Origin: Acidobacteriota bacterium
Lineage (GTDB): Bacteria; Acidobacteriota; Terriglobia; UBA7540
NCBI GenBank assembly: GCA_004298155.1
Contig: SCRD01000007.1
Coordinates: 248,001 to 312,000 of the forward strand
Direction: 5' to 3'
DNA: 64,000 nucleotides
Of the stretch, positions 2,740 to 36,590 are shown piece after piece; position 1 is the first letter of the stretch, and each line of letters starts with the position of its first letter. The notes below the pieces were generated by a model, which saw only the letters and a list, made by a program, of their open reading frames with translations, ran no database searches and had not been told where the DNA came from. The translations under genes and the position numbers were made by a program.

Positions 2740-4059
2740 TCAGCCTTTCAACTTGGCCAGCAGCGCCGCCTTGAGCCGTTCCCGAAGTGGCTCGACTTTC
2801 ACGTGGCCGATAATTTCGGCGGCAAACGCTTCAACCAGCAGGCTGCGGGCTTCTTCCAGCCCAATGCCACGCGAACGAAGATAAAATATCGATTCAGGAT
2901 CGATCTGGCCAATGGTCGCACCGTGCGTGCATTTCACGTCGTCGGCAAAGATTTCAAGCTGCGGCTTGGTGTTGATGCTGGCGGATTCTGACAGCAACAG
3001 ATTCTTGTCGCTTTGCTTCGAGTCTGTCTTTTGCGCGTCTTTCCGCACCATAATTTTGCCGTTGAAGACCGCAGTCGATTTTCCGTCCAGAATGCCTTTG
3101 TAAAACTCGCGGCTGGAGCAGTGCGGCTGGGCGTGGTCGATGGTTGTATGGTTGTCAATCAGTTGCTGGCCGTCGGTTACGTATAAGCCATAGAGATATG
3201 CCTCCGCCCCATTTCCATCAAGGACCGCAGTCAGTTCCTCGCGGCCCAGACGCGCACCAAACTGGATGGAATTAGTAGCCACTGCCGCGCTGCGCGCTGC
3301 ATAAGCCGCTACAGTGGCTACGTGGAAGGCCTCTTCGCTTTCTTTCTGGAGCTTGGTGTAATCAACATGGGCGTTATCCTCTGCGACGATTTCAGTGACC
3401 GCGTTGTTGAAATAGACGCCGTTGTCGAGTCCCACGTAGGTTTCCACAAGCACCAACTGGCTGCCCTGGGCCGCGATCACCAGGTTACGCGGATGCGCCA
3501 CCCAGGGCGCCTCGCCGCCCATTGAGAAATAGAGGATCTCAACCGGCTGTTTCAGCGCAACTCCTTTGGGGACCTCGATGAACGCGCCGTCCTGAACAAA
3601 AGCCGTGTTGAGCGCCACAAACGGGTGCGTATTAAATGCGGCGTAGCGGCTCATGTGCGCCGCAACGGCATCTTCATGTTTCAGCGCATTCCGCAGGCTT
3701 GTGACTGTGGCGCCTTTCGGAAGGTTTCTGACGGAGGAAAGCTCCTCCAGGTAATGTCCATTCAGGAAAACCAGTCGCGCGCAGTCCGTGCCGGCGTGGG
3801 AGGCCTCATTGACCTTCTTCCGGATGCCGTCACTCAATTCGCAAGTGGGCCGCTGGAAGCGAATCCCCGCGATAGGTGCAACGTTGCAGTATTTCCAGTC
3901 TTCAAGCCGCGTTGTCGGGAAACCCATTTCGGCAAAAGCCTGCATGCATTCGCTGCGCAGATTTTTCAGCCACACAGGGGCCGTCGAGGACTGCCGCTCC
4001 TCCAATTCCCGAAAATCTTTCAGGTAAAGCTCTTCGCTTTCTTTCAGTGCAATCGCCAT
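2740..4059 (-). CDS. sufD: SufD, SufBC2D scaffold subunit
   Basis: About 439 residues. It has the SufD layout: an N-terminal helical part with RLEDWKYCN, a beta-helix core and a C-terminal segment with CTHGATIGQIDPESIFYLRSRGI, the signature shared by SufB and SufD. It pairs with SufB and the SufC ATPase to build clusters. ATG at 4059 is preceded directly by an in-frame TTG at 4062; AAGGA lies 8 bases from the TTG and 11 from the ATG, so either could be used. It lies about 30 bases after sufC and 6 bases before sufS. Confidence 0.95.
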   Translation of the reverse strand: MAIALKESEELYLKDFRELEERQSSTAPVWLKNLRSECMQAFAEMGFPTTRLEDWKYCNVAPIAGIRFQRPTCELSDGIRKKVNEASHAGTDCARLVFLNGHYLEELSSVRNLPKGATVTSLRNALKHEDAVAAHMSRYAAFNTHPFVALNTAFVQDGAFIEVPKGVALKQPVEILYFSMGGEAPWVAHPRNLVIAAQGSQLVLVETYVGLDNGVYFNNAVTEIVAEDNAHVDYTKLQKESEEAFHVATVAAYAARSAAVATNSIQFGARLGREELTAVLDGNGAEAYLYGLYVTDGQQLIDNHTTIDHAQPHCSSREFYKGILDGKSTAVFNGKIMVRKDAQKTDSKQSDKNLLLSESASINTKPQLEIFADDVKCTHGATIGQIDPESIFYLRSRGIGLEEARSLLVEAFAAEIIGHVKVEPLRERLKAALLAKLKG

Positions 4060-20490: not shown

Positions 20491-20581
20491 TGGCACGGTC
20501 AACGCGCCGCTACAGGACCAATCGGAGGGCAGTGCCCTCACCTACGAAGCAAGAGCCGCAGGCCGCAAGGGCCTGCGCTAC
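20491..20581. repeat. Composite hairpin repeat, copy 1
   Basis: Three modules in a row, the first and last closed by CGCTAC and the middle one by CCTACGA: a GCGCCGCTAC arm, a GAGGGC-AGT-GCCCTC hairpin, then GCAGGCC-GCAAG-GGCCTGC. Copies with the same module order occur at 23621-23714 and, lacking the middle module, at 27656-27718. This one ends just inside the permease stop. Confidence 0.75.
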
Positions 20582-23268
20582 TCATATCGCAGCGCGACCA
20601 TGGGATCGACCTTGGCGGCGCGGCGGGCGGGGATGTAACAGGCTGCGAGCGCGGCCAGCGAGAGGACCCCTGCAGCCGCCGCCATGGTCATGACGTCGCG
20701 CGTTCCCACGCCGAAAAGCATCTGGTGGAGCAAATGCGTCGAGCCCAGCGAAAGCGCCACTCCGCCGGCAAGCCCCACTAACAGCACGGCGATCACGTCG
20801 CCCATCACCAGTCTCAAAATGGAATTGGGCTGGGCGCCTAACGCCATCCGGATGCCAAACTCGGCCTGACGTTGAGCGACCAGATAGCTGAATGTCCCGT
20901 AAAGGCCGACCATAGCCAGAAGGACGGCCAGCGCTCCGAAGAAACCGGACAGCAGCGCCAGTGTCCGTTCCGGGACAATCGAATCATTCACCATCTGGGC
21001 AAGCGTATTGAATTCCAGAGGGACCTCACCGTTTACTTCTGCAACAGCAGCCTCAACGCTCCGGACAAGCGCCGAGGGCGGTACTGCCGTGCGTATTTCA
21101 AACTGCCCTGCGTTTTCCCGTTCCTGCGTGATTGGAAAGAAGACCGTGGGCGGAGTTTCCTCACGCAAAGAACCATACTTGGAGTCCCGAACCACGCCAA
21201 CGACTTCAATGGGGGGACCGGGCTGGCCGGAAATCTGGTCGCCCCGGAAGGTCTTTCCGAGCGGATTCAGGTGTGGAAAAAACCGCCGAGCAAGGGTCTG
21301 GTTGATAATCGCAACCGCAGGGCCGCCCTTCTTATCGCCGTCGTTGAAGTTTCGGCCGGCCACCAGTTGCATTCGCAGGGTTTCGAAGAACCCCGGCGAG
21401 ACTGAGTTTAAGTCGGCCACCGCATTATCTCCAGTCAGGCCTTTCGACCACTCGGTGCTGATCACGTTGTTCCATTCGAAGCCGCTGATGGGAGTGAACG
21501 CGGACCTGCCGACGGAGGTCACCCCGGGCAAAGCCCGTAGCCGACGCTCAATTGCCTCGTACATCCCAGGCTGTTGGTCTGTGGGCACTTTAGCAACCGA
21601 GAGATTGGCGCTTGCCAGCAGGACGTTGTTACGATCGAAGCCGATATTGAGCGTAGCGAGCTTGACGAAGCTCCTAAGCAGCAGTCCCGCTGCCACCAGC
21701 AAAAGCAGCGAAAGCGCAACCTGAGATGCCACAATCCACTTGCGGGTGCGGAAGCGCACGGGACCTTCTTTCTCTACGGCCTTGCCCCCCTTCATCGCCG
21801 TGGTCAGTGATAAGCGCGTGGATCGGAACGCCGGCAAGACCCCAAACAGAAGGGCGGTGAGCACCGCAGTGGCCGCCGTAAAACCAAGGACGTGACCATC
21901 GAGAGACAGGTCCAGGAACACTGCATTCTGAGCGGTCGAAATGTAGCGGACCAGCAAGTTACTGCACCACCTCGCGAAGAGTATGCCCAATAGTGCGCCT
22001 GCCGTAGAAAGCAAAAAGCACTCCGTCAACAATTGACGAACCAACCGCCGGGGAGTGGCCCCCAGTGCCCGCCGGACTGCGATCTCTTTGTGGCGGGCAG
22101 CCGCACGGGCCAGCAGCAGGCTGGCAATGTTGGCGCAGGCAATCAAGAGTATCAGGCCGACAACGGCCATCAGGATGCCGAGCGGTTGCTCGAAATTCCG
22201 CCGCAGAGCAGAGGTGCCCGTGGCGGCCGGGGCAGCCAGCAGGCCCATCTTCGTAAAGCCTTTTTGCATGTTCGGAGACCAGTCTTGCGGTACGGCGGCA
22301 GCAAAGATCTGGGGCGAAAGCACCGCGAGCCGCGCTGATATCTGGTTTTGGCTGATGCCTGGTTTGATGCGGCCGGCGATCTTCAACCACCACCAGCTAC
22401 GCTGGTCCAGCCGGGATTTCATCCCGCGGTCCCTGTCGAAGATTGCCACGGCGCAGATCGGTACAGCCACATCGAATTTCTCACCCACATCCATGCCAAA
22501 AAAGCCGGGTGGGGCTACGCCAATGACATCGGCGGGATGGCCATAGAGCGAAAGGGTGCTGCCGATGGCATTGCTGCTTCCGCCGTAATGGTCCTGCCAG
22601 AAACCATAGCCCAGCACGGCGACGGCCGGGCAACCGCGCCGGTCATCGGAAGCGGTGATCAGGCGCCCCGCGGCAGGGTGAAGCCCCAGCGAATTGAAAA
22701 ACCCGCCGCTCACCCAGATTCCATTCACCATGTGAACTGCGCCTCCGCCTGCCAGGTCAAACCGGGTCTGGCTCCATGCGAAGACGCCTGAAAAGACGTC
22801 CTGCTGGTCGCGCACTTGCTCCCACAGGGAGTTCGTAAAGTTACCGCCCTGACCAGACCACCGGGGGTCGTGGTATTGCACTTGCATCAATTCGTCGGGT
22901 TTGGTTACGGGTAAAGTCCGAAGCATCACGGCATCAATCAGGCTGAAGATGGCGGTGTTCGCACCAATGCCCAGCGCCAGGGTTAGCACGGCGACAGCCG
23001 TGAAGCCCGGGTTGCGGCGGAGCTGGCGGAGGCCGTAGCGTAAATCCTGAAGCAGGGTTTCGAGCCACTGGAAGCCCCAGGCCGTGCGCACGTCTTCTTT
23101 GATCTGCGTTGTGTTGCCGAGGGCGCGACGAGCGGCGTAGGCGGCTTCTTCCGCAGACACGCCCGCGTCCTGCTGCTCTTCGGCTTCCAGTTCCAGATGG
23201 CCGCGCAGTTCGCGCTCGAGGTCTGACTCGCGCTGCTGCCGCCGTGTTCTCCATCGCCAGAATTTCAT
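20578..23268 (-). CDS. ADOP-family ABC permease with N-terminal prefix domain
   Basis: 896 residues from the ATG at 23268, which has GAGGTG 5 bases upstream; the frame is open 321 bases further but only over repeat DNA. Residues 1-80 are the charged permease prefix domain (LERELRGHLELEAEEQQDAGVS). After the helix QDLRYGLRQLRRNPGFTAVAVLTLALGIGANTAIFS comes a MacB-type periplasmic domain, an FtsX core, then a second periplasmic domain and FtsX core: the duplicated architecture found mainly in Acidobacteria. The C-terminus PARRAAKVDPMVALRYE is typical. No ATPase gene is adjacent. The function is unknown; export or mechanotransmission is possible. Confidence 0.9.
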   Translation of the reverse strand: MKFWRWRTRRQQRESDLERELRGHLELEAEEQQDAGVSAEEAAYAARRALGNTTQIKEDVRTAWGFQWLETLLQDLRYGLRQLRRNPGFTAVAVLTLALGIGANTAIFSLIDAVMLRTLPVTKPDELMQVQYHDPRWSGQGGNFTNSLWEQVRDQQDVFSGVFAWSQTRFDLAGGGAVHMVNGIWVSGGFFNSLGLHPAAGRLITASDDRRGCPAVAVLGYGFWQDHYGGSSNAIGSTLSLYGHPADVIGVAPPGFFGMDVGEKFDVAVPICAVAIFDRDRGMKSRLDQRSWWWLKIAGRIKPGISQNQISARLAVLSPQIFAAAVPQDWSPNMQKGFTKMGLLAAPAATGTSALRRNFEQPLGILMAVVGLILLIACANIASLLLARAAARHKEIAVRRALGATPRRLVRQLLTECFLLSTAGALLGILFARWCSNLLVRYISTAQNAVFLDLSLDGHVLGFTAATAVLTALLFGVLPAFRSTRLSLTTAMKGGKAVEKEGPVRFRTRKWIVASQVALSLLLLVAAGLLLRSFVKLATLNIGFDRNNVLLASANLSVAKVPTDQQPGMYEAIERRLRALPGVTSVGRSAFTPISGFEWNNVISTEWSKGLTGDNAVADLNSVSPGFFETLRMQLVAGRNFNDGDKKGGPAVAIINQTLARRFFPHLNPLGKTFRGDQISGQPGPPIEVVGVVRDSKYGSLREETPPTVFFPITQERENAGQFEIRTAVPPSALVRSVEAAVAEVNGEVPLEFNTLAQMVNDSIVPERTLALLSGFFGALAVLLAMVGLYGTFSYLVAQRQAEFGIRMALGAQPNSILRLVMGDVIAVLLVGLAGGVALSLGSTHLLHQMLFGVGTRDVMTMAAAAGVLSLAALAACYIPARRAAKVDPMVALRYE

Positions 23269-23423
23269 TGCGCACCTCGTTGACCGCCGCTTCCGGAGGA
23301 GGGAGGACCTCCGATTCTGAGGTCCTCGGTTTCTCTCCGAAGGCCCGGAGGGCCGTGAGACTGTAGCCCACGGCGCGAGCCGCGGGAACAAAGCCCTCAC
23401 CCACCCCGCCCAGGCGGGGTCCC

Positions 23424-23446
23424 CCCTCTCCCCGGCGGGGAGAGGG
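23424..23446. repeat. GC-rich hairpin with 10-base stem
   Basis: CCCTCTCCCC, a GGC loop, then GGGGAGAGGG. A relative (GCCCTCTCC/GGAGAGGGC) stands at 23748-23769. Confidence 0.7.
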
Positions 23447-23620
23447 CTGGGGTGTGGGGCGCGACAATTCACCCATGGCTTGCGCCATGGGCTAAATTCT
23501 GCCGCTCCTCCGGAGCTGCTCGGTCGCGTGCCCTTGTAGCGGCGGCTTCTATCCCGCTTTCCAGGACATTTAGTGTCCGCATACATCACAAGAAGCGCGA
23601 AATCAAACTGAGCCGCTACC

Positions 23621-27736: not shown

Positions 27737-30262
27737 TTACTCATAGCGCAACGCCACCATGGGGTCCACATTGGCGGCGCGGCGGGCGGGGAAGTAACAC
27801 GCCAGCAGAGCCACGACGATCAGAATCAGCGATACCGCCACGAACGTGAGCGGATCAGTTGACTTCACGCCATAAAGCAGACCCGCAAGGAACCGCGTAA
27901 GCGCGAGCCCTCCGGCGATGCCGAGTGCAACGCCGACCAGCGCCAGCCTGAGCCCCTGGCCAACGACCATGCTTAGGACGTCCCGTTTCTCCGCACCCAA
28001 CGCCATACGGATACCAACTTCGCGAGTTCGCTGCGACACCGAATAGGACATCACCGCGTAAAGGCCGATAATGCCGAGCAGCAGGGCCATGACGCCTGCC
28101 AGCCCCAACATCACGAGCGTAAAGGAAGTGCGCGCTATTGACCTTCGGCAATAGTATTCAAGCGTATGGACCTCGGCCAATGGAAGATTGGAGTCCACTG
28201 ACCACACGGCCCTCTGGACCTCGTTCATCAAAGCTTGCGAGCCCGCGCGTGGGCTGCGAACGGAGAAGGATACATAGCGGCGCACATTGACCTTATCGCC
28301 CTCGAAGCGGTCCATCAGCAAGGGCCAGTATACCAACTCAGTTGCGTCCTTATCGATGCCGTCGTCGCGTACGTCCCCAACAACTCCGACCACCTCGCGC
28401 CAATCTTCCTTCGTGCTCACCCGGATCTGTTTGCCAAGGGCGCTCAAGGGGTCGTGCCAGTATTCGCGCGCTAATTTCTCAGAAACGATGGCCACTGGAT
28501 GCATGTCGTAAAGGTCGCTCCAGGTGAAATCGCGTCCGGCGACAAACGGAGTACCCAAAGTCTTGAAATAGCCCGGCGCGACGAACTCAAAAACGCGGAG
28601 TGGGAGCTTGCCAGGTGAGTAGGCGTGGTCTTTTGCGAAGACCGGATCGCTCCAATGATTCCCGTCCATGGGGACTGACTTGGAAACGGCGGCCGAGGAG
28701 ACGCCCGGAATGGCTTCGATTTTATGCAGGATCCCCTCTTGCATGTGAACGACCCGCTCCGGCTCCTTAACCTCGTTTTCGGAGATGTCGATGCGAAACG
28801 TCTGGAGCCCGGAAGGCGCGACGAATCCAGGGTCCACGCGGGACAGGGCGAGGAAGGTGCGAATCATGAGTCCCGAGCTGATCAGTAGAACGAGCGCCAG
28901 CCCCACCTGTGCAATCACAAGCGTGCTGCGCGCGCGATGCCGCTCACGACTCTCGCTCACGGAGCGACCGCCCTCACGGAGGACTGTCCCAAGACGCGCG
29001 CCCGTATATTTCAGGACAGGGACAGAACCGAATAGAAGACTCGCAAGCACCGATGTTCCCAGTGCGAACAGGACGACGGTCCTATCAATGCCGATTTCAC
29101 TGAGCCGAGGCAGGCCAGCCGGCGCCATGGCTACAAGGACCCGCAAGGCCCCATAGGCCAATCCGAGGCCGATCAAGCTGCCGGCCAGGGCCAGAATCAG
29201 ACTCTCAAACAGCAGTTCGGCAGCAATGCGGCCCCGGCTTGCGCCCAGCGCGGCGCGGATGCCGAACTCCTGCTCGCGGCCTTCGGCCCGAACAAGTAAC
29301 AAGTTCGCCACGTTGGCGCAGGCAATGAGCAGCACCAGGCCGATACTGCTCATCAGGACCCACAAGACCTTGCCAACGTCACCCACCACGTCCTGCTTCA
29401 GCGGCCGAACGTTGGGCCCGATGCGGGCGTCTTCAAACAACTTCAGGCTGAAGCCCGGCGGCGGTGGAAAACTTCTCAGCATGATTGGGATCATGCGCGC
29501 CACGTCTGCGTTGGCCTGGGCCAGCGTGACACCCGGCTTGAGCCTGGCGATGGCCTCATAACTGAATTGTCCAAGGAACGTTTTGGCGCGGTCGAACTTC
29601 AAGGGCAGGATCATGGCAATGCCGGACCAATCGAGGAAATGAAATTGCTGCGGCAGCACTCCGATGATCTGCCGCGGCTTTCCGTCCAAAGTAATACTTT
29701 TTCCGACTACTGAGCGGTCGCCGCCCCATTTGCGAATCCAGTAGCCGTAGGTCAGCATGACTGTTTCCGGACTGCCAGATAAATCGTCCGCGCGCGTGAA
29801 TGACCGTCCGAGCATGGGCGTTACGCCGAGGATGGGAAACAATCCGTCGGTCACGGCCAGGGCCTGCACGTGCTCTGGTTGAGCCACGCCGGTAACATTT
29901 ACCGAATCGCCCTGGTAGATACCGATGTCCTCAAACGTGCGACTCTGCTCGCGATAAATAAAGTAGGTCCCTGGCGACGCATCGAGGTCCGTAATATTGA
30001 TCCCAGGGGCCGTTTGCCAGACACCGACAAGCCGGTCCGGATGCGGATACGGCAGAGGTTTGAGGAGGACCCCGTCGACCACGCTAAAAATCGCCGTGCT
30101 TGCACCAATCCCCACCGCGAGTGTAAGTACGGCAACCACTGTGAATCCGGGGTTGCGGCAAAGCTGCCTCAAACCGTAGCGGAGGTCCTGCCCCAGCGTT
30201 TCGAGGAAGAGAAACGTCCGCAGGTTGCGGTTGGATTCGCTGGTTCGAGGTTGGCTGGGCAT
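27737..30262 (-). CDS. ADOP-family ABC permease without prefix domain
   Basis: 841 residues from the ATG at 30262. It begins almost at once with GQDLRYGLRQLCRNPGFTVVAVLTLAVGIGASTAIFS, so it lacks the roughly 80-residue prefix domain of the other ADOP. Then come two MacB-like periplasmic domains and two FtsX cores, ending PARRAANVDPMVALRYE. The start lies 7 bases after the DUF4097-type gene stop, a coupled pair. The open frame extends 198 bases upstream into that gene without a good start. Role unknown. Confidence 0.88.
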   Translation of the reverse strand: MPSQPRTSESNRNLRTFLFLETLGQDLRYGLRQLCRNPGFTVVAVLTLAVGIGASTAIFSVVDGVLLKPLPYPHPDRLVGVWQTAPGINITDLDASPGTYFIYREQSRTFEDIGIYQGDSVNVTGVAQPEHVQALAVTDGLFPILGVTPMLGRSFTRADDLSGSPETVMLTYGYWIRKWGGDRSVVGKSITLDGKPRQIIGVLPQQFHFLDWSGIAMILPLKFDRAKTFLGQFSYEAIARLKPGVTLAQANADVARMIPIMLRSFPPPPGFSLKLFEDARIGPNVRPLKQDVVGDVGKVLWVLMSSIGLVLLIACANVANLLLVRAEGREQEFGIRAALGASRGRIAAELLFESLILALAGSLIGLGLAYGALRVLVAMAPAGLPRLSEIGIDRTVVLFALGTSVLASLLFGSVPVLKYTGARLGTVLREGGRSVSESRERHRARSTLVIAQVGLALVLLISSGLMIRTFLALSRVDPGFVAPSGLQTFRIDISENEVKEPERVVHMQEGILHKIEAIPGVSSAAVSKSVPMDGNHWSDPVFAKDHAYSPGKLPLRVFEFVAPGYFKTLGTPFVAGRDFTWSDLYDMHPVAIVSEKLAREYWHDPLSALGKQIRVSTKEDWREVVGVVGDVRDDGIDKDATELVYWPLLMDRFEGDKVNVRRYVSFSVRSPRAGSQALMNEVQRAVWSVDSNLPLAEVHTLEYYCRRSIARTSFTLVMLGLAGVMALLLGIIGLYAVMSYSVSQRTREVGIRMALGAEKRDVLSMVVGQGLRLALVGVALGIAGGLALTRFLAGLLYGVKSTDPLTFVAVSLILIVVALLACYFPARRAANVDPMVALRYE

Positions 30263-30269
30263 ATACCAC

Positions 30270-31157
30270 TCAGTTCGATGCAATGCGGATGGAGCCGCCG
30301 CTGGTGTGAAGAAGAAGCGTTTGCCCGCCCGAGCCGAGCGTGCCGTGCACCTTTGAATGCGATATCGTGCCCTGCACGCGCAAGGGCATATCGGTCGAGA
30401 CAGAGCCTCCTGAAGTCGAAGCGTCGATGTCGAGGTTCGCTGCGGGATCGAGGCTGGCATGGATCGAACCGCCGGATGTTGTGAGTTCGCCTCCCTGGTT
30501 GTTGCCGCGCGCGAACGCTGCCTGAATTGAGCCTCCCGAGGTGTGGGCGATCGCGCGTCCCGTTACGCCGTCAACATGGATCGGCCCCCCGCTGGTCCCC
30601 GCCTGCAACGACCCGTTCAAAGAATTCACGGTGATACCGCCGCCCGAGGTCCCCAGGTCGGCGTTGCCCGTCACATCCCGGACGTTGATCGAACCGCCTG
30701 AAGTATGGGCCACGAGATTGCCTCGAACCTCCGAAGCGTCGATCGAGCCTCCCGAAGTGCGCAGGTCCTGTTCGCCTTGAAGCGATGTAACCTTGACCGA
30801 CCCGCCGCTGGTTTTGATGCTGAGGCCCGTCTGCGACGGCACCGTTACATCAAAGTGCAGATTCACATTCGAGAACCATTGGAGCGTCTTCTTCCTCGCG
30901 GTGACCTGCGCCAGGCCATTACTTGAATTGAAATCGAAGTTGAACAATGACTGTAAATCGTCACGGTTCGACGTGATGACGATTCTGGCGTCCGAAGCGT
31001 TCGACCCCGTCACGGTAACGCTGCCCGAGTCCGTTTGCAGGACAAATTTTCCTCCCGGAGCCAAGGTCAATGTCTTTTCAATCCGCGAATCGGCGAACGC
31101 CGCAACGCTGATTACCATGAGGGCAACCATCAGCAAGCCCATTCTTCTAGTTTTCAT
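30270..31157 (-). CDS. Exported TSGGS-repeat protein (DUF4097-like)
   Basis: 295 residues. A signal peptide ends near AAFA (about residue 22). From residue 112 on, the motif TSGGS/TSGGG recurs about nine times at roughly 18-25-residue steps, each followed by short beta strands, which predicts a right-handed beta-helix or stacked sheet. The family (DUF4097, putative adhesin) has no firm function. The ATG at 31157 is chosen because GGAGG lies 5 bases upstream; the frame also opens at a GTG inside that ribosome site. It is coupled to the downstream ADOP permease. Confidence 0.8.
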   Translation of the reverse strand: MKTRRMGLLMVALMVISVAAFADSRIEKTLTLAPGGKFVLQTDSGSVTVTGSNASDARIVITSNRDDLQSLFNFDFNSSNGLAQVTARKKTLQWFSNVNLHFDVTVPSQTGLSIKTSGGSVKVTSLQGEQDLRTSGGSIDASEVRGNLVAHTSGGSINVRDVTGNADLGTSGGGITVNSLNGSLQAGTSGGPIHVDGVTGRAIAHTSGGSIQAAFARGNNQGGELTTSGGSIHASLDPAANLDIDASTSGGSVSTDMPLRVQGTISHSKVHGTLGSGGQTLLLHTSGGSIRIASN

Positions 31158-31397: not shown

Positions 31398-31931
31398 CTA
31401 CGTTTCGTCTTTGCGGGCGGGAGGAGAGGAATGGGCGACCACTTCGACCAGGCCGGCAACGTCGCCCAGGCTGTCGTAGACTGGGGCGAGGATGGAAATC
31501 ACGCCGGGCCTCTGCTTCACCGTAACCCTCTGGCCGGTTTCAAGCACCGTTTTCATGGGCGGAAACAGGTCCTGGCTAATGGCTCCGAATACCCAGAACT
31601 GGCTCAGCTCGCGGGCATTCCGAATCACTACCTGGATTTTATCCGGGTGGCCCGGAATGGGCATCCAGAGGTCCACATCACAGGCAAATGGAGCCAGGCG
31701 TGCCAGGCGGATGAGTGTTTTCTTGATGGCGTTGAACTCGAAGTCGTTTACGTCGTAGTTGTCGCCGGCCAGAAAGCGGTCATGCGGGTCGGTTTTGAAC
31801 ATGTACTCGATGGCGCGCGGGGTGACAATCCGCCGGCAGGCGTCGCCGTCCAGCATCACGCCGGCGACGCGGGCGATGTGGTCGAGCTCCTGCTCGATCT
31901 GCTCCGGGCTGTTGCCTGGATTTTCTGTCAT
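31398..31931 (-). CDS. Cache/PDC-like small protein, function unknown
   Basis: 177 residues from the ATG at 31931, which forms ATGA with the stop of the upstream gene. The first half is charged helix (EQIEQELDHIARVAGVMLDGDACRRIVTPRAIEYMF). The C-terminal half (VTVKQRPGVISILAPVYDSLGDVAGLVEVVAH) has the look of the end of a Cache sensor domain. No membrane segment or output domain is visible. Tight coupling to the Tat-exported hydrolase-like protein suggests a shared job. Confidence 0.6.
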   Translation of the reverse strand: MTENPGNSPEQIEQELDHIARVAGVMLDGDACRRIVTPRAIEYMFKTDPHDRFLAGDNYDVNDFEFNAIKKTLIRLARLAPFACDVDLWMPIPGHPDKIQVVIRNARELSQFWVFGAISQDLFPPMKTVLETGQRVTVKQRPGVISILAPVYDSLGDVAGLVEVVAHSSPPARKDET

Positions 31932-33838
31932 GTGTTTTCCCGCGCAAGCTGCATGATGTATTGCCGTACGCGACTCCATGCCGCAGGATCCAGGTTGGCG
32001 GAAAGCTTGCGCGTGTGTTCGCCCGCGGCTTCCATTTCCGAATCCGTCCATTCATAGGGAGGCTTTTCGGCAAGCGCCGGACGCGGGTCCCACCATGCGT
32101 CCGGCGTTGAGCTGTTGAACCGTTGCGTTGCTTGCGATTTCAGCTTTTCCAGGCTGTGCCGCGACTTGTAGCTGTCAAGCAGCGTCAGTTCCTGCACGGC
32201 GTTACGCTGGATTTTAAGCCGGATGCTCGGGATGGGGTCCTGGAGGCCGAAGCGTTCGCCCGGGTAAACCAGCGTGGTGCCGCCGCCCGTAAAGTTGAAC
32301 CATGGGTCCTTGCCGGGGCTCACAGCCAGCCAGTGCACAAAACCCGTGGCGTCCCACACCCAGGCGCGCAGGGCCAGCTCCGTGATGGCGGATGACGGCT
32401 GGGTCACGAGAGGCGGACCACCGTAATACCACGCAATGTCGCCCCGCTCGCGCAGCATCTTCGGCGCGCCCTTGTACCAGCTCAGGACCCCGCCACTGCA
32501 CGTCCACATGTTGACCACGCCGTTGAGCTCGCGGAACTCCTGCTCCATGTCCCAGCTGACGTCGGCGCGAAAAACGAAACGAACGGGAGTGCCTTCGGGC
32601 AGCGCCTTCTTCAGCAGTCGCCCGTATTCGTGGAAGTAGCTGAGGTCTTTGGGAAAGCGCACCTCATCGCCATCCCACGAGAAGCCCATGTAGCGCTTCT
32701 TATGGTTGAAGAACATTTCAAAATTCGTCCTGGTCCAGCCCTTCTCGCGGAAATGCCTTTCCATTTCACTGACGACATTGACGAATTCGGCCTCATAGCC
32801 CGGCTCGCCCCACCATAGCCAGGAAGCAGGCCATTCAGGGTTGATGGGCAAATAGGCAAACGGGATGGGACTGGGACCGCGGCGCGCTTGCGCAAAGGCG
32901 GAGCCGTCCAGCAACGGCCCGTAGTGCCGGTCGTACAGGTCCCAACTAGCGATGCGCTTCCTGCGCCCTTCGCCTTCAAGTGCCGGCGCGAACTCCGGAG
33001 TGACGCGGCCAGCGTGCCCGTAACCGAGCTGGTGGAAAACGCCGTGGTGCTCGTAAAAAATCCGGTGGTAGGAGTGGACCAGGCGGAAGAGTTCGCCGCT
33101 CTCAAAAAAGTTTCCGCTCGTGGCCCGAACGCGGGCGGGGAATTGCGCCGCGATCCACGAGTCGTCATAAGAGTTGTGGTCCATTGCCACCACATCTTCG
33201 GCGGGAATGACCGCAGGATGCACGCGCAGGCGCAGCCCAAGCGCGTGGCTTTTGCCACCGGCTTCAAGCGTAGCCCGGCCTGTGTATTCGCCCGGCTCGG
33301 CATCTGGCGGGACCCAGACGTCAACCCAGAAGGCCTGCGCGGTCTGGTCGGGGACCTTGTTGTCGGGGTCGGGAAGCTGCGACCGATAAGGCAGAGGCGC
33401 TGGAACAAGGGCGTCCGGGTAGTAGTCGCCGGAGCGTAGAGGGTGGAACCACTCGCGGAACAAGTCAATCTGGATTTTGCCGGCGCGATCGCTCAGATGC
33501 AGGTCGACCTTGTAATCGCCAGGCCGGGCGGTTTGAACAACCAGATGAAACGAGGCATAACCACCCCGCGCGCACTCGAGTGAAAGGCTGGCGCTCTTGT
33601 GGAAGCCATCGGCGGCGGGAGCGGCGCTCCTGTCAGCTCGAACGATGCCTCCAAACGGGTCGGGCCGGATAAACTCCGGCAGGGCCAGGAGGCGCGTCTC
33701 GCCGGCTGGCGAAACATCTTGCGGCTTCGGAGCTTTACCCCAGGCGGGAGCGGCCCTCTCGGTTGCCAAAGCTCCCAAGGCGGTTTGCAGGAACGTCCTG
33801 CGCGTAGGATTTCCGGTTTTTTCCATCGAAGGTTTCAT
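31928..33838 (-). CDS. Tat-exported glycoside-hydrolase-like protein (DUF4091-like)
   Basis: About 636 residues. The N-terminus carries a twin-arginine motif, PTRRTFLQTALGALA, so it is probably exported folded. An N-terminal beta-sandwich (about 70-230) is followed by a barrel-like region rich in aromatic residues (NPEWPASWLWWGEPGYEAEF, FNHKKRYMGFSWDGDE, NVWTCSGG-like NMWTCSGG) and a C-terminal part (WDATGFVHWLAVSPGKDPWF, YPGERFGLQDPIPSIRLK) typical of DUF4091 proteins, which are suspected sugar-cleaving enzymes. The start (33838 or 33826) is uncertain as neither has a clear ribosome site. Confidence 0.7.
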   Translation of the reverse strand: MKPSMEKTGNPTRRTFLQTALGALATERAAPAWGKAPKPQDVSPAGETRLLALPEFIRPDPFGGIVRADRSAAPAADGFHKSASLSLECARGGYASFHLVVQTARPGDYKVDLHLSDRAGKIQIDLFREWFHPLRSGDYYPDALVPAPLPYRSQLPDPDNKVPDQTAQAFWVDVWVPPDAEPGEYTGRATLEAGGKSHALGLRLRVHPAVIPAEDVVAMDHNSYDDSWIAAQFPARVRATSGNFFESGELFRLVHSYHRIFYEHHGVFHQLGYGHAGRVTPEFAPALEGEGRRKRIASWDLYDRHYGPLLDGSAFAQARRGPSPIPFAYLPINPEWPASWLWWGEPGYEAEFVNVVSEMERHFREKGWTRTNFEMFFNHKKRYMGFSWDGDEVRFPKDLSYFHEYGRLLKKALPEGTPVRFVFRADVSWDMEQEFRELNGVVNMWTCSGGVLSWYKGAPKMLRERGDIAWYYGGPPLVTQPSSAITELALRAWVWDATGFVHWLAVSPGKDPWFNFTGGGTTLVYPGERFGLQDPIPSIRLKIQRNAVQELTLLDSYKSRHSLEKLKSQATQRFNSSTPDAWWDPRPALAEKPPYEWTDSEMEAAGEHTRKLSANLDPAAWSRVRQYIMQLARENT

Positions 33839-34165
33839 GCCCGAAGGCTGCGCGCGAATGCAAGTTCCAGAGCGCGGCAGTGGGAAATCATCTCCGAACT
33901 GCAAAATTAAGTCAACTGCTGGAAGCTTCCTCCAGACTCAGGCAGAGCTTCCATCGGTGTTTCAACTTGCCGGAACTCTTATGACGGGGCTCAACCCGAG
34001 CGCTAAACAGTTTGAAATTGGCTCACGCTGCGCGAGGGGTTTTGGATCGAGTCAGCACGGGGCGAACGATCAAACGCCTATGACCGTAGGAGCCTTGCAC
34101 GCGCAGGTATTTTTGCCCCTTCACTCCGAGTGCCTTCCTGCGTTGAAGGGCGAATCACTTCCTCT
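33839..34165. other. Divergent intergenic region
   Basis: No gene or RNA is recognised. The right end leads into the CRP/FNR-like site at 34166. Confidence 0.5.
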
Positions 34166-34255: not shown

Positions 34256-35578
34256 ATGGCGACGAACGTCAAATCCAGGGAATATCATCGAGAGCCGATA
34301 CCTTACGTTGAAAACCCCGCGCCCAGGCAGGATACTTTTGTGCCCACCGGTCCGCTCAACCCCTGCGAGCTGGAAATAGACCTGTTTTGTAAAGGTATTC
34401 GAGTGGATGACTCCTGCACGCTGGGCGAGGTGGGGCGTCCGCTGGTGCGAACGCGGGCAGGGCTGGGAAGCGGGCTGGAAGTGATCATCCCCGGTCCGCT
34501 TAAAGACATCTGGGCCAATATTCCTGTCGAGGAAGAGTTTGCGCAGAAGTCCTGCTACCGGATTGTTCGGGACGGCGACGACTTTGAAATCATCGACAAT
34601 CGACAGGGCATCAGCTATCCGGTGAGGCTTTCGCCGGAAGTGCCCTGGTACGCCCGCAAAACGTCACGCGGCATCCAGATGCAGCGTATCGGCGTCTTGC
34701 AGGGGACCTATCTCGGAATCTATATTTCGAATTCCTGCGGCTTCTGGTATCACTCGCCGGCTCTCAACTGCAAGTTCTGCACCACGGGACTGAACGTGGG
34801 CGTGAACGAGGTGGAGCTGAAAGACGTGGAGGACGTTGTCGAGGTAGCGAGGGCGGCGAAAGAGGAGTCGGGCGTCACGTTCTTCCATTTCAACTCCGGC
34901 TACCAGACCAATCGTGACCTCGACCGGGCCGCGCCCTACGTGAAGGCCGTGAAGTCGCGCGTAGGCGGATTGATTGGCGTACAGTTGACGCCCACCCGCG
35001 ACCTTTGGAAGTACGATCGGCTAATCGACCTGGGCGCTGACCACTTCAGTTTCTGTTATGAGTTCCAGAATCCGGAGTTCTTTGCAAAGCTCTGCCCGGG
35101 CAAAGAGAAACTGATCGGCCAGAAGACGTTCTTCCAGGCGCTCGAATACACCTCGAAGAAACTCGGGAAAGGCGCCTGCTCCGGAGAAATCATCGCCGGC
35201 ATCGAGCCCATCGAAGACACGATGGCCGGGATTGACATGATCGCTGGAATGGGGGCGTTCCCCACGGTCTGCATTTTCCGCCCCACCATCGGGTCTGACA
35301 TGGAAAGCTGGTCATCGCCCCGTTACGAAGACATGATTGTGGTCTATCGCCACCTCTATGAGGCGTGCAGGAAGCACGGTATTCCCATGGATGTGACGCC
35401 CAACATCGAGGTCAGCCTGGTTGTCCAGCCCGGTGATACTCGTTACCTGGCAGACTCAGGCCTCGCGACGACGCTCTACGACATCAAGCTGAGCCTGCTG
35501 AAGAAAGCGGCGCGCCCGTACTTCTGGTGGGCCATGCGTCCAAAGAACATCAAAGCTTCTGAAATCCTGAGCGCGTGA
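34256..35578 (+). CDS. Radical SAM-like protein with CX10CX2C motif, function unknown
   Basis: 440 residues. Residues 1-155 form an N-terminal region I do not recognise. Then YISNSCGFWYHSPALNCKFC gives Cys161, Cys172 and Cys175, a CX10CX2C cluster motif instead of the usual CX3CX2C. The rest reads like a radical SAM barrel: THFFHFNSG-like FFHFNSGYQTN, VGGLIGVQLTPT, LGADHFSFCYEF, EIIAGIEPIEDTMAGIDMIAGMG. Such enzymes cleave S-adenosylmethionine to make radicals. ATG follows AGGGGG by 6 bases. The gene stands alone behind a CRP-like site, so induction by starvation, low oxygen or nitrosative signals is possible. Confidence 0.75.
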   Translation: MATNVKSREYHREPIPYVENPAPRQDTFVPTGPLNPCELEIDLFCKGIRVDDSCTLGEVGRPLVRTRAGLGSGLEVIIPGPLKDIWANIPVEEEFAQKSCYRIVRDGDDFEIIDNRQGISYPVRLSPEVPWYARKTSRGIQMQRIGVLQGTYLGIYISNSCGFWYHSPALNCKFCTTGLNVGVNEVELKDVEDVVEVARAAKEESGVTFFHFNSGYQTNRDLDRAAPYVKAVKSRVGGLIGVQLTPTRDLWKYDRLIDLGADHFSFCYEFQNPEFFAKLCPGKEKLIGQKTFFQALEYTSKKLGKGACSGEIIAGIEPIEDTMAGIDMIAGMGAFPTVCIFRPTIGSDMESWSSPRYEDMIVVYRHLYEACRKHGIPMDVTPNIEVSLVVQPGDTRYLADSGLATTLYDIKLSLLKKAARPYFWWAMRPKNIKASEILSA

Positions 35579-35855: not shown

Positions 35856-36590
35856 TCAGGCATGCAGTGTGCTCTGTTGCTGAGACACCGCACCCAGTGC
35901 CGTCCCGCTGAAGGACATAACAATCAGGTCCGCGCGGCGCTGAACACCAAACTTTGCCAGAAGGTTCGAGACGTGGAACTTTGCTGTGCGTTCGGAAATG
36001 TTCAACTGGCCCGCGATTTCCTTGTTGGAGAGGTTATCCAGCACGGCCTGAAGCACCTCCCGTTCGCGCCGGCTCAGCCCCACCGAGCTGCTGATCATCG
36101 TCCGGTTTCGCGAGCTCGGCAGAATCGATTCGACAAAGCGGGAAAGCAGAACGTGAGGCACCGCATAGCTCCCTTCAATTAATGCTTCGAGAGCGACGCC
36201 CAGTTCTGTGGATGCCTCGGAATAGGTCAACAACCCTTTGGTTCCCAGGCGCAGCAGCGGAAAAGCGCTTGCCTCGTCAAATTTTTCGGAAATCGCAACC
36301 ACCTTCGACGCCGGGTAGCGGTCCATTATCTCCGACACCAAGAGGGCCGCGACCGTTGGCACGCACGCGTCAACGATATAAAGAGGGCACTTTGGAAAAG
36401 CTAAACGGTGGAAATCAGTTGTTAAACGTGAATCAATGTGCTTGGCTTTCACCCGATAGGATAAGTTGGCCAGTGTTTTCGAGAACTCACTTAGAACCAG
36501 CGGATGGGGGGACAGGAGGCAAACTTTCAAACACGGCTTGCCGTGTTTTCGCAACCTACGAGAGAAGCCAGCGAGTGTTTGCTCGATCAT
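35856..36590 (-). CDS. NarL/LuxR-type response regulator
   Basis: 244 residues. The N-terminal receiver-like domain (about 20-140) has Asp74 in YIVDACVP as a possible phosphate acceptor. The C-terminal LuxR helix-turn-helix (about 170-228) reads LSRREREVLQAVLDNLSNKEIAGQLNISERTAKFHVSNLLAKF. ATG at 36590 follows AGGAGA by 9 bases. No sensor kinase is adjacent, so it is an orphan. A possible promoter (TTGACT, 16 bases, TAACAA) lies about 200 bases upstream. Targets unknown; the flippase and glycosyltransferase genes further upstream are candidates. Confidence 0.87.
   Translation of the reverse strand: MIEQTLAGFSRRLRKHGKPCLKVCLLSPHPLVLSEFSKTLANLSYRVKAKHIDSRLTTDFHRLAFPKCPLYIVDACVPTVAALLVSEIMDRYPASKVVAISEKFDEASAFPLLRLGTKGLLTYSEASTELGVALEALIEGSYAVPHVLLSRFVESILPSSRNRTMISSSVGLSRREREVLQAVLDNLSNKEIAGQLNISERTAKFHVSNLLAKFGVQRRADLIVMSFSGTALGAVSQQQSTLHA

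Follow-up and report, generated by a model that had tools for sequence, protein, structure and literature searches.

The gene and its surroundings

The gene described here lies in a window of 64,000 nucleotides, the whole stretch of Acidobacteriota DNA that was analysed. It is read from ATG to TGA over 440 amino acids with no internal break, and it is preceded by a candidate regulatory site:

34,256-35,578, forward strand: noncanonical radical SAM coding sequence (NF045502 variant_rSAM), 440 amino acids
34,166-34,181, no strand: perfect CRP-type palindrome TGTGA-N6-TCACA, a putative regulatory site 74 bp before the ATG

The frames flanking the gene (31,928-33,904 and 35,856-36,590) are both on the reverse strand, and the second of them encodes a LuxR-type regulator. 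Elsewhere in the window, two large frames lie on the reverse strand (20,578-23,589 and 27,737-30,460), the latter resembling, by eye, a permease of the FtsX/MacB type.

A similarity search identified relatives of the window enzyme encoded at 30 loci. L001, a relative from the same genus, is 90% identical to it over the whole length, and the two genes differ at 247 nucleotides, 192 of them in the third codon position, 34 in the first and 21 in the second; of the 440 codons, 175 carry a synonymous and 46 a non-synonymous change. The relatives at 30 loci and this third-position bias indicate that the frame is a real gene rather than a chance one; on the opposite strand, stops are present in that register. 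An alternative in-frame GTG start at 34,130 would give a longer frame, but the similarity with L001 begins at the window ATG and not at the upstream GTG. That the window gene is a decaying remnant is a reading to which we give almost no weight. Broken relatives do exist, namely L030:8004-9274 on the forward strand, which consists of two overlapping frames, and G339:C54:14778-15675, which has an internal stop, and the distribution in the class is patchy, with strong matches in seven of 399 genomes, its own counted. The window copy, however, is intact and retains the conserved residues, and its differences from L001 are strongly biased towards third positions. When the host genome was searched with the window protein, a single copy was found, the window gene itself; with a threshold of E 0.01, the Pfam radical SAM model matches the same genome 42 times, so that the gene coexists with many canonical radical SAM relatives.

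Family, predicted fold and cluster motif

Profile searches and the translated frame gave two features for the family assignment:

34,367-35,374, forward strand: match to NCBIfam NF045502, residues 38-373, 186.1 bits against a cut-off of 125
34,736-34,780, forward strand: cluster motif C161-X10-C172-X2-C175, with the cysteines invariant in 70 of 70 distinct family rows

NF045502 (variant_rSAM) matches all 39 aligned members at E 1e-3. The first-pass annotation had regarded the N-terminal region of 155 residues as unfamiliar; as NF045502 spans residues 38-373, most of this region lies within the named family, and the description fails from residue 38 on. The Pfam model PF04055 (Radical_SAM) gives 24.1 bits against a gathering cut-off of 29.5, and 26.2 bits in the whole-genome search. 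Because this score falls below the model's own cut-off, surveys resting on the Pfam radical SAM model or on CX3CX2C can miss such proteins, a kind detected by profile in 59 of 297 Acidobacteriota and 28 of 343 Planctomycetota genomes. Regarding a match to a characterised subgroup, the search named the group, NF045502, and found no characterised member in it; in the open-access literature, no report of a cluster or an activity was found for any member of NF045502 variant_rSAM. The earlier interpretation is half right: no characterised equivalent was found, but the protein falls in a named group for which such spacing is usual.

The AlphaFold model (pLDDT 86.7, pTM 0.88) is a radical SAM barrel. 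Foldseek matched it in the PDB with LipA, HydE, PylB, ThiH and BioB at E about 1e-6 to 2e-5, and the top VIA rows are LipA 5exj (Z 17.6, 238 aligned, 3.6 Å), HydE 7o1o (Z 17.0, 221 aligned, 3.0 Å) and BioB 8vcw (Z 16.8, 232 aligned, 3.7 Å), which are tied within 1 Z unit. A profile search of PDB sequences matched BioB, HydE, PylB and aminodeoxyfutalosine synthase. Structure prediction (LipA/HydE/BioB, Z 16-17.6) bears out the earlier call of a radical SAM-like enzyme. We would place the enzyme in the biotin synthase/lipoyl synthase/HydE branch of radical SAM proteins. With BioB, LipA, HydE and PylB it shares the barrel fold and the similarity near the second and third cluster cysteines; in the VIA rows, identity to the window enzyme is 9-18%. 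BioB, LipA, HydE and PylB carry CX3CX2C, and so do the BioB-like and LipA-like genes of the host, unlike the CX10CX2C of the window enzyme.

These likenesses raise the question of whether the enzyme substitutes for, or duplicates, the biotin synthase or lipoyl synthase of the host. LipA, BioB and HydE are among the nearest solved folds, there is a weak BioB match, and a LipS2 profile matches seven of the 39 family members at E 1e-3, the window enzyme not being one of them. A stand-in for BioB or LipA is nevertheless unlikely because the BioB-like and the LipA-like motif are each carried by a gene of their own in the host genome (L189 and L194, respectively). Furthermore, the BioB profile (TIGR00433) scores 18.2 bits, below its cut-off of 225, and Cys308, aligned with a cysteine of E. 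coli BioB that we take to be a cluster ligand, is not conserved. In view of all this, the probability of such a role is very small.

The motif claimed for Cys161, Cys172 and Cys175 is exact in the translated frame (codons at 34,736-34,738, 34,769-34,771 and 34,778-34,780), and CX10CX2C departs from CX3CX2C as had been noted. The impression that the motif is unfamiliar did not survive the comparison, since a long and variable first spacing is a feature of NF045502. The three cysteines are also invariant across 30 aligned sequences (the window enzyme and 29 relatives). Counted in aligned columns, the first spacing ranges from 8 to 14 over the 70 distinct family rows; in the query subfamily it is 8 (two rows), 9 (one), 10 (41), 11 (two) or 14 (one), and in the other family rows 8 (19 rows), 9 (two) or 14 (two). 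The rows with spacing 9 include an Agrobacterium protein of the MSMEG_0568/NitD type (L102), with CX9CX2C. A spacing of 17 for L065, obtained from a plain pattern count, was rejected, as the aligned columns give 8. Because the spacing varies in the family while the three cysteines are invariant, a long variable loop between ligands 1 and 2 fits the data better than a new cluster site.

There is precedent for a stretched first loop. The excerpts available of one paper describe QueE as CX14CX2C, with a site that is otherwise canonical and one extended loop, and HmdB as CX5CX2C (PMC4389238), and the available part of another states that HcgA (CX5CX2C) holds a [4Fe-4S] cluster and makes 5'-deoxyadenosine (PMC10100467). 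All three differ from the window enzyme in family: QueE belongs to another, as do HmdB and HcgA, and the HmdB profile weakly matches three of the 39 members, the window enzyme not among them. Nothing pairing CX10CX2C with radical SAM was found in the open-access literature. In our reading, C161, C172 and C175 would bind one [4Fe-4S] cluster, with X10 as the lengthened loop. The cluster would reduce SAM to yield a 5'-deoxyadenosyl radical, and this radical would abstract hydrogen from a substrate inside the barrel.

Two sister subfamilies with other spacings were also observed. One, with CX8CX2C (CQY-x6-C-x2-CD), occurs repeatedly in the same class (L032:1246-2550, forward, and L050:1417-2799, reverse), and the second has CX14CX2C (L054:1363-2721, forward, and L055:1333-2640, reverse).

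The window enzyme resembles the rest of NF045502 in its score above the cut-off, its three conserved cysteines and a first spacing within 8 to 14, but the family is broad, and the subfamily of the window enzyme has three cysteines of its own and, in part of its members, an adjacent partner gene. The NF045502 group with such spacing is already known; what is new are the private cysteines of the subfamily and the unnamed partner, both of which emerged only from comparison beyond the window. The cysteines are:

34,388-34,390, forward strand: Cys45, subfamily-specific, present in 47 of 47 rows of the subfamily and 0 of 23 outside it
35,054-35,056, forward strand: Cys267, subfamily-specific, in predicted strand 263-269, 47 of 47 and 0 of 23
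35,270-35,272, forward strand: Cys339, subfamily-specific, in predicted strand 335-340, 46 of 47 and 0 of 23

For these counts, a signature combining an LGIY-like stretch with a CxxW pattern was used to divide the family alignment, giving 47 distinct rows of the query kind and 23 others; the split is not blind to the motif region, and the cysteine positions named above were not used in it. An earlier subfamily set of 50 rows contained three near-copies, and the counts come from the 47 and 23 distinct rows. The two sets are also told apart by Ser265, Glu311 and Arg342 (each 47 of 47 in the subfamily) and, nearly, by Asn213 and His211; Glu269 is retained in 70 of 70 rows. On this alignment, the window enzyme is a member of a distinct subfamily with Cys45 and Cys267 as private invariant residues. 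Cys267 probably faces the same side as Glu269, because it is two positions away from it, and the strand positions alone suggest that Cys267 and Cys339 may face the active site. Because of the extra cysteines (45, 267 and nearly 339) and the changed barrel residues, the subfamily probably catalyses a different reaction from its MSMEG_0568/NitD cousins.

These cousins are the basis of another explanation, in which the window enzyme is a diverged MSMEG_0568/NitD enzyme that does the same nitrile/cyanide-assimilation job as in Nit1C, with the genes of the cluster scattered. The portions available of two papers link Nit1C to cyanide and nitrile assimilation and give NitD as its radical SAM member (PMC11049912, PMC1199592), and one of them relates the MSMEG_0568/NitD radical SAM protein to COG2516 (PMC1199592). 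TIGR04043 (MSMEG_0568) does match the window enzyme with 95.4 bits, and 27 of the best 30 of 59 plasmid relatives are annotated as MSMEG_0568 (25.6-28.6% identity). Three quarters of the query aligns with MSMEG_0568/NitD at about 28% identity, and the Agrobacterium example (L102) has, by eye, the same layout of N-terminal region plus barrel. However, the score is far below the TIGR04043 cut-off of 303.7, which no match exceeds in any of 297 Acidobacteriota genomes. The Nit1C-type genes of L102 are absent from the frames around the window gene (28-42 kb) and from the list of the 25 commonest neighbour families. The window enzyme also lacks the CxxCxxC found at the C terminus of the L102 protein, and the barrel residues differ. 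Cut-off, neighbours and missing cysteine motif led us to reject membership of the MSMEG_0568 family, and we consider the shared nitrile or cyanide role improbable.

A small partner gene among the relatives

In 19 of 65 distinct loci, the enzyme gene is adjoined on the same strand by a gene for a protein of about 140 amino acids. It lies 3' of the enzyme in 16 loci and 5' in three (L013, L119 and L139), the aligned parts being 5 to 151 bases apart, and the two genes touch or overlap in five loci (L007, L008, L108, L111 and L115). The loci with this partner span Acidobacteriota, Planctomycetota, Latescibacterota and Eiseniibacteriota. An example is L015:1806-2222 on the forward strand, whose family is also found at 18 other loci; at L139:4409-7309, also forward, an AhbD-like heme b synthase gene (473.5 bits, slightly below the cut-off of 500), the partner and the enzyme follow one another in a run of three. 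The first-pass annotation had seen no partner gene adjacent and had suggested a neighbourhood survey. For the window gene itself the survey agrees; the tree, however, places it in a set of 20 rows, and a partner lies adjacent at 14 of the 19 loci that make up the rest.

The partner came to light with a gene caller trained on the codon usage of the enzyme genes and applied to 60 loci (71 loci, less six in which this caller missed the enzyme, L021, L022, L110, L119, L123 and L140, and five merged duplicates); the tree set comprises 65 distinct loci. A survey of the neighbourhoods by longest non-overlapping open reading frames had not found the conserved partner, because the longest frames of these GC-rich genomes often run antisense; frames overlapping the enzyme gene made up several of that survey's largest groups.

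The partner family has no NCBIfam or Pfam match in four members tested (one Pfam hit, E 0.16) and no PHROGs match in two. Its invariant residues are R62, K81, S83, S88, D90, R91, Y94, G95 and G119, with a short invariant run S-x-D-R-(Y/F)-x-Y-G. The model (pLDDT 92.3) predicts a compact alpha-beta domain, for which the best Foldseek match has E 0.4. The best VIA row, the frataxin-type protein CyaY 4jpd (Z 5.5, 82 aligned, 3.5 Å), is tied with unrelated Mediator rows at Z 5.3 and 5.2. No VIA row has a Z of 8 or more, and we do not call a new fold. By sequence, the best PDB match has E 0.44; no encoded relative was found in a viral collection, and a plasmid search with one partner as query gave no match.

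The association was also examined across genomes. Of 297 Acidobacteriota genomes sampled, 59 carry the enzyme (TIGR04043 profile, E <= 1e-20; 40 of 59 loci retrieved and checked); the partner is present in 11 and both genes in 10 (hypergeometric p 4.6e-7), in a sample that overlaps the loci defining the partner profile. In three of the 10 pairs, the partner is on a different contig from the enzyme; taken alone, the unlinked cases (three of four with the enzyme) give p 0.02. In four of these genomes (G510, G446, G458 and G432; loci L155-L158), the partner lies directly behind genes for DAHP synthase and cysteinyl-tRNA synthetase, and in G510 (94% complete, 410 contigs) the partner is present and the enzyme was not found. 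The Planctomycetota draw is the cleaner test. Among its 343 genomes the enzyme (E <= 1e-30) is found in 28, the partner in eight and both in eight, with the partner immediately 3' of the enzyme in all eight. These eight carry the best-scoring enzymes, 58-62% identical to that of the window; in the remaining 20 genomes, whose enzymes are less similar to it, no partner match was found. Four of the eight pairs are new beyond the earlier loci, and these alone give p 2e-5.

The enzyme does not universally require the partner, as 46 of the 65 loci have none adjacent (three of these carry it elsewhere in the genome), and none was detected in 49 of the 59 enzyme-bearing Acidobacteriota genomes (at most 13 candidates scored per genome) or in five genomes searched individually. 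This bears on the possibility that the small protein is not a helper but the substrate that the enzyme modifies. The operon-like pairing, with genes touching or overlapping in five loci, and the short invariant run would suit a substrate, but the enzyme is kept in all these genomes where no partner was detected, and the model of the partner is that of a compact folded domain, with no Pfam, NCBIfam or PHROGs family in the members tested. A substrate role is thus unlikely, though we would allow it a small chance. We prefer the reading that, in a good part of the subfamily, the protein of about 140 amino acids cooperates with the enzyme, perhaps as an accessory subunit, a carrier or a protein that presents the substrate.

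In the maximum-likelihood tree, the window enzyme groups with L001, L005 and L002 (support 97/96). The enclosing set of 11 rows (100/99) holds the partner-bearing L015, L016, L006, L003 and L030, together with L028 and L004, also without partner (the contig of L004 ends just after the gene), and the next outward branches, L007 and L008, both have the partner. Searches for the partner in the genomes of the window, L001, L002 and L005 (G000, G002, G018 and G014, the last 88% complete), and in G030, which holds L028, did not find it, while the same search succeeded in G010 and G019. Since the window enzyme nests inside partner-bearing relatives, the simplest reading is that the partner was lost or replaced in this lineage and that the enzyme was retained under selection. 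The placement of L028 in the tree is weakly supported, and there may have been one loss or several. To look for partner sequence left downstream of the window gene, 25 partners were run in tblastn; the best hit (E 0.001, 26.9 bits) coincides with the LuxR-type gene and, coming from a tiny database and many queries, was not accepted as a remnant.

Possible regulation and proposed role

The palindrome before the window gene is kept at nine of 10 positions, in the same place, in L001, and L007, from another phylum, has a perfect TGTGA-N6-TCACA. Palindromes matching at 9/10 or better are found near the start in seven of 57 loci; among the other genes of these regions the figure is 11 of 479 (p 0.0013). 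As the test was conceived after seeing the window and L001, it was repeated without both, giving five of 55 (p 0.017). Genes of the CRP/FNR type are also concentrated around the enzyme, making up 10 of the 216 genes up to two places away and one of the 311 farther out (p 8e-4), and they occur within two genes of it in 10 of 60 loci; one example, beside the relative at L002, is L002:2203-2871, and no such gene lies beside the window gene. Hemerythrin/RIC (two near and three beyond), NnrS (one and two) and SPASM proteins (three and three) are not enriched. The response-regulator control gave p 0.63, and since a short-chain dehydrogenase used as control reached p 0.03 (four and zero), p values near 0.03 mean little here. 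We suggest that a regulator of the CRP/FNR type probably switches the gene on.

The reading we favour, with a probability of roughly 0.7, is that the window gene encodes a radical SAM enzyme of NF045502 with a single cluster and a lengthened loop, in a distinct subfamily that is found in part with a partner and would be under CRP/FNR-type control. More tentatively, and with the odds somewhat against it, the subfamily may constitute a two-part system, with a stretched loop, active-site cysteines of its own, a partner that has no known family and perhaps an unusual fold, CRP/FNR-type control and a reaction not yet assigned to a radical SAM enzyme, in which the window enzyme would have become independent of the partner. 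The conserved neighbour provides a concrete handle on function, as the pair can be co-expressed, and the lineages with and without the partner offer a natural contrast.

The surroundings of some loci, including the AhbD-like gene of L139, hint at an anaerobic or nitrosative physiology, which we take as background only. Genes found there encode RIC (L142), NnrS and hemerythrin (L113), hemerythrin (L133) and a molybdopterin oxidoreductase (L143). At L142, two genes from the enzyme and beside the RIC iron-sulfur repair gene, a regulator of the CRP/FNR type (2811-3539, forward) contains the cysteine-rich stretch ECRNCLVEVSC and is possibly a redox or NO sensor. Small proteins resembling HypC/HupF, a call based on Pfam and NCBIfam runs on the L109 protein, are encoded in one clade at a distance of one to three genes from the enzyme (L109:8573-8878 and L114:8806-9096, both forward, and L112:5901-6107, reverse).
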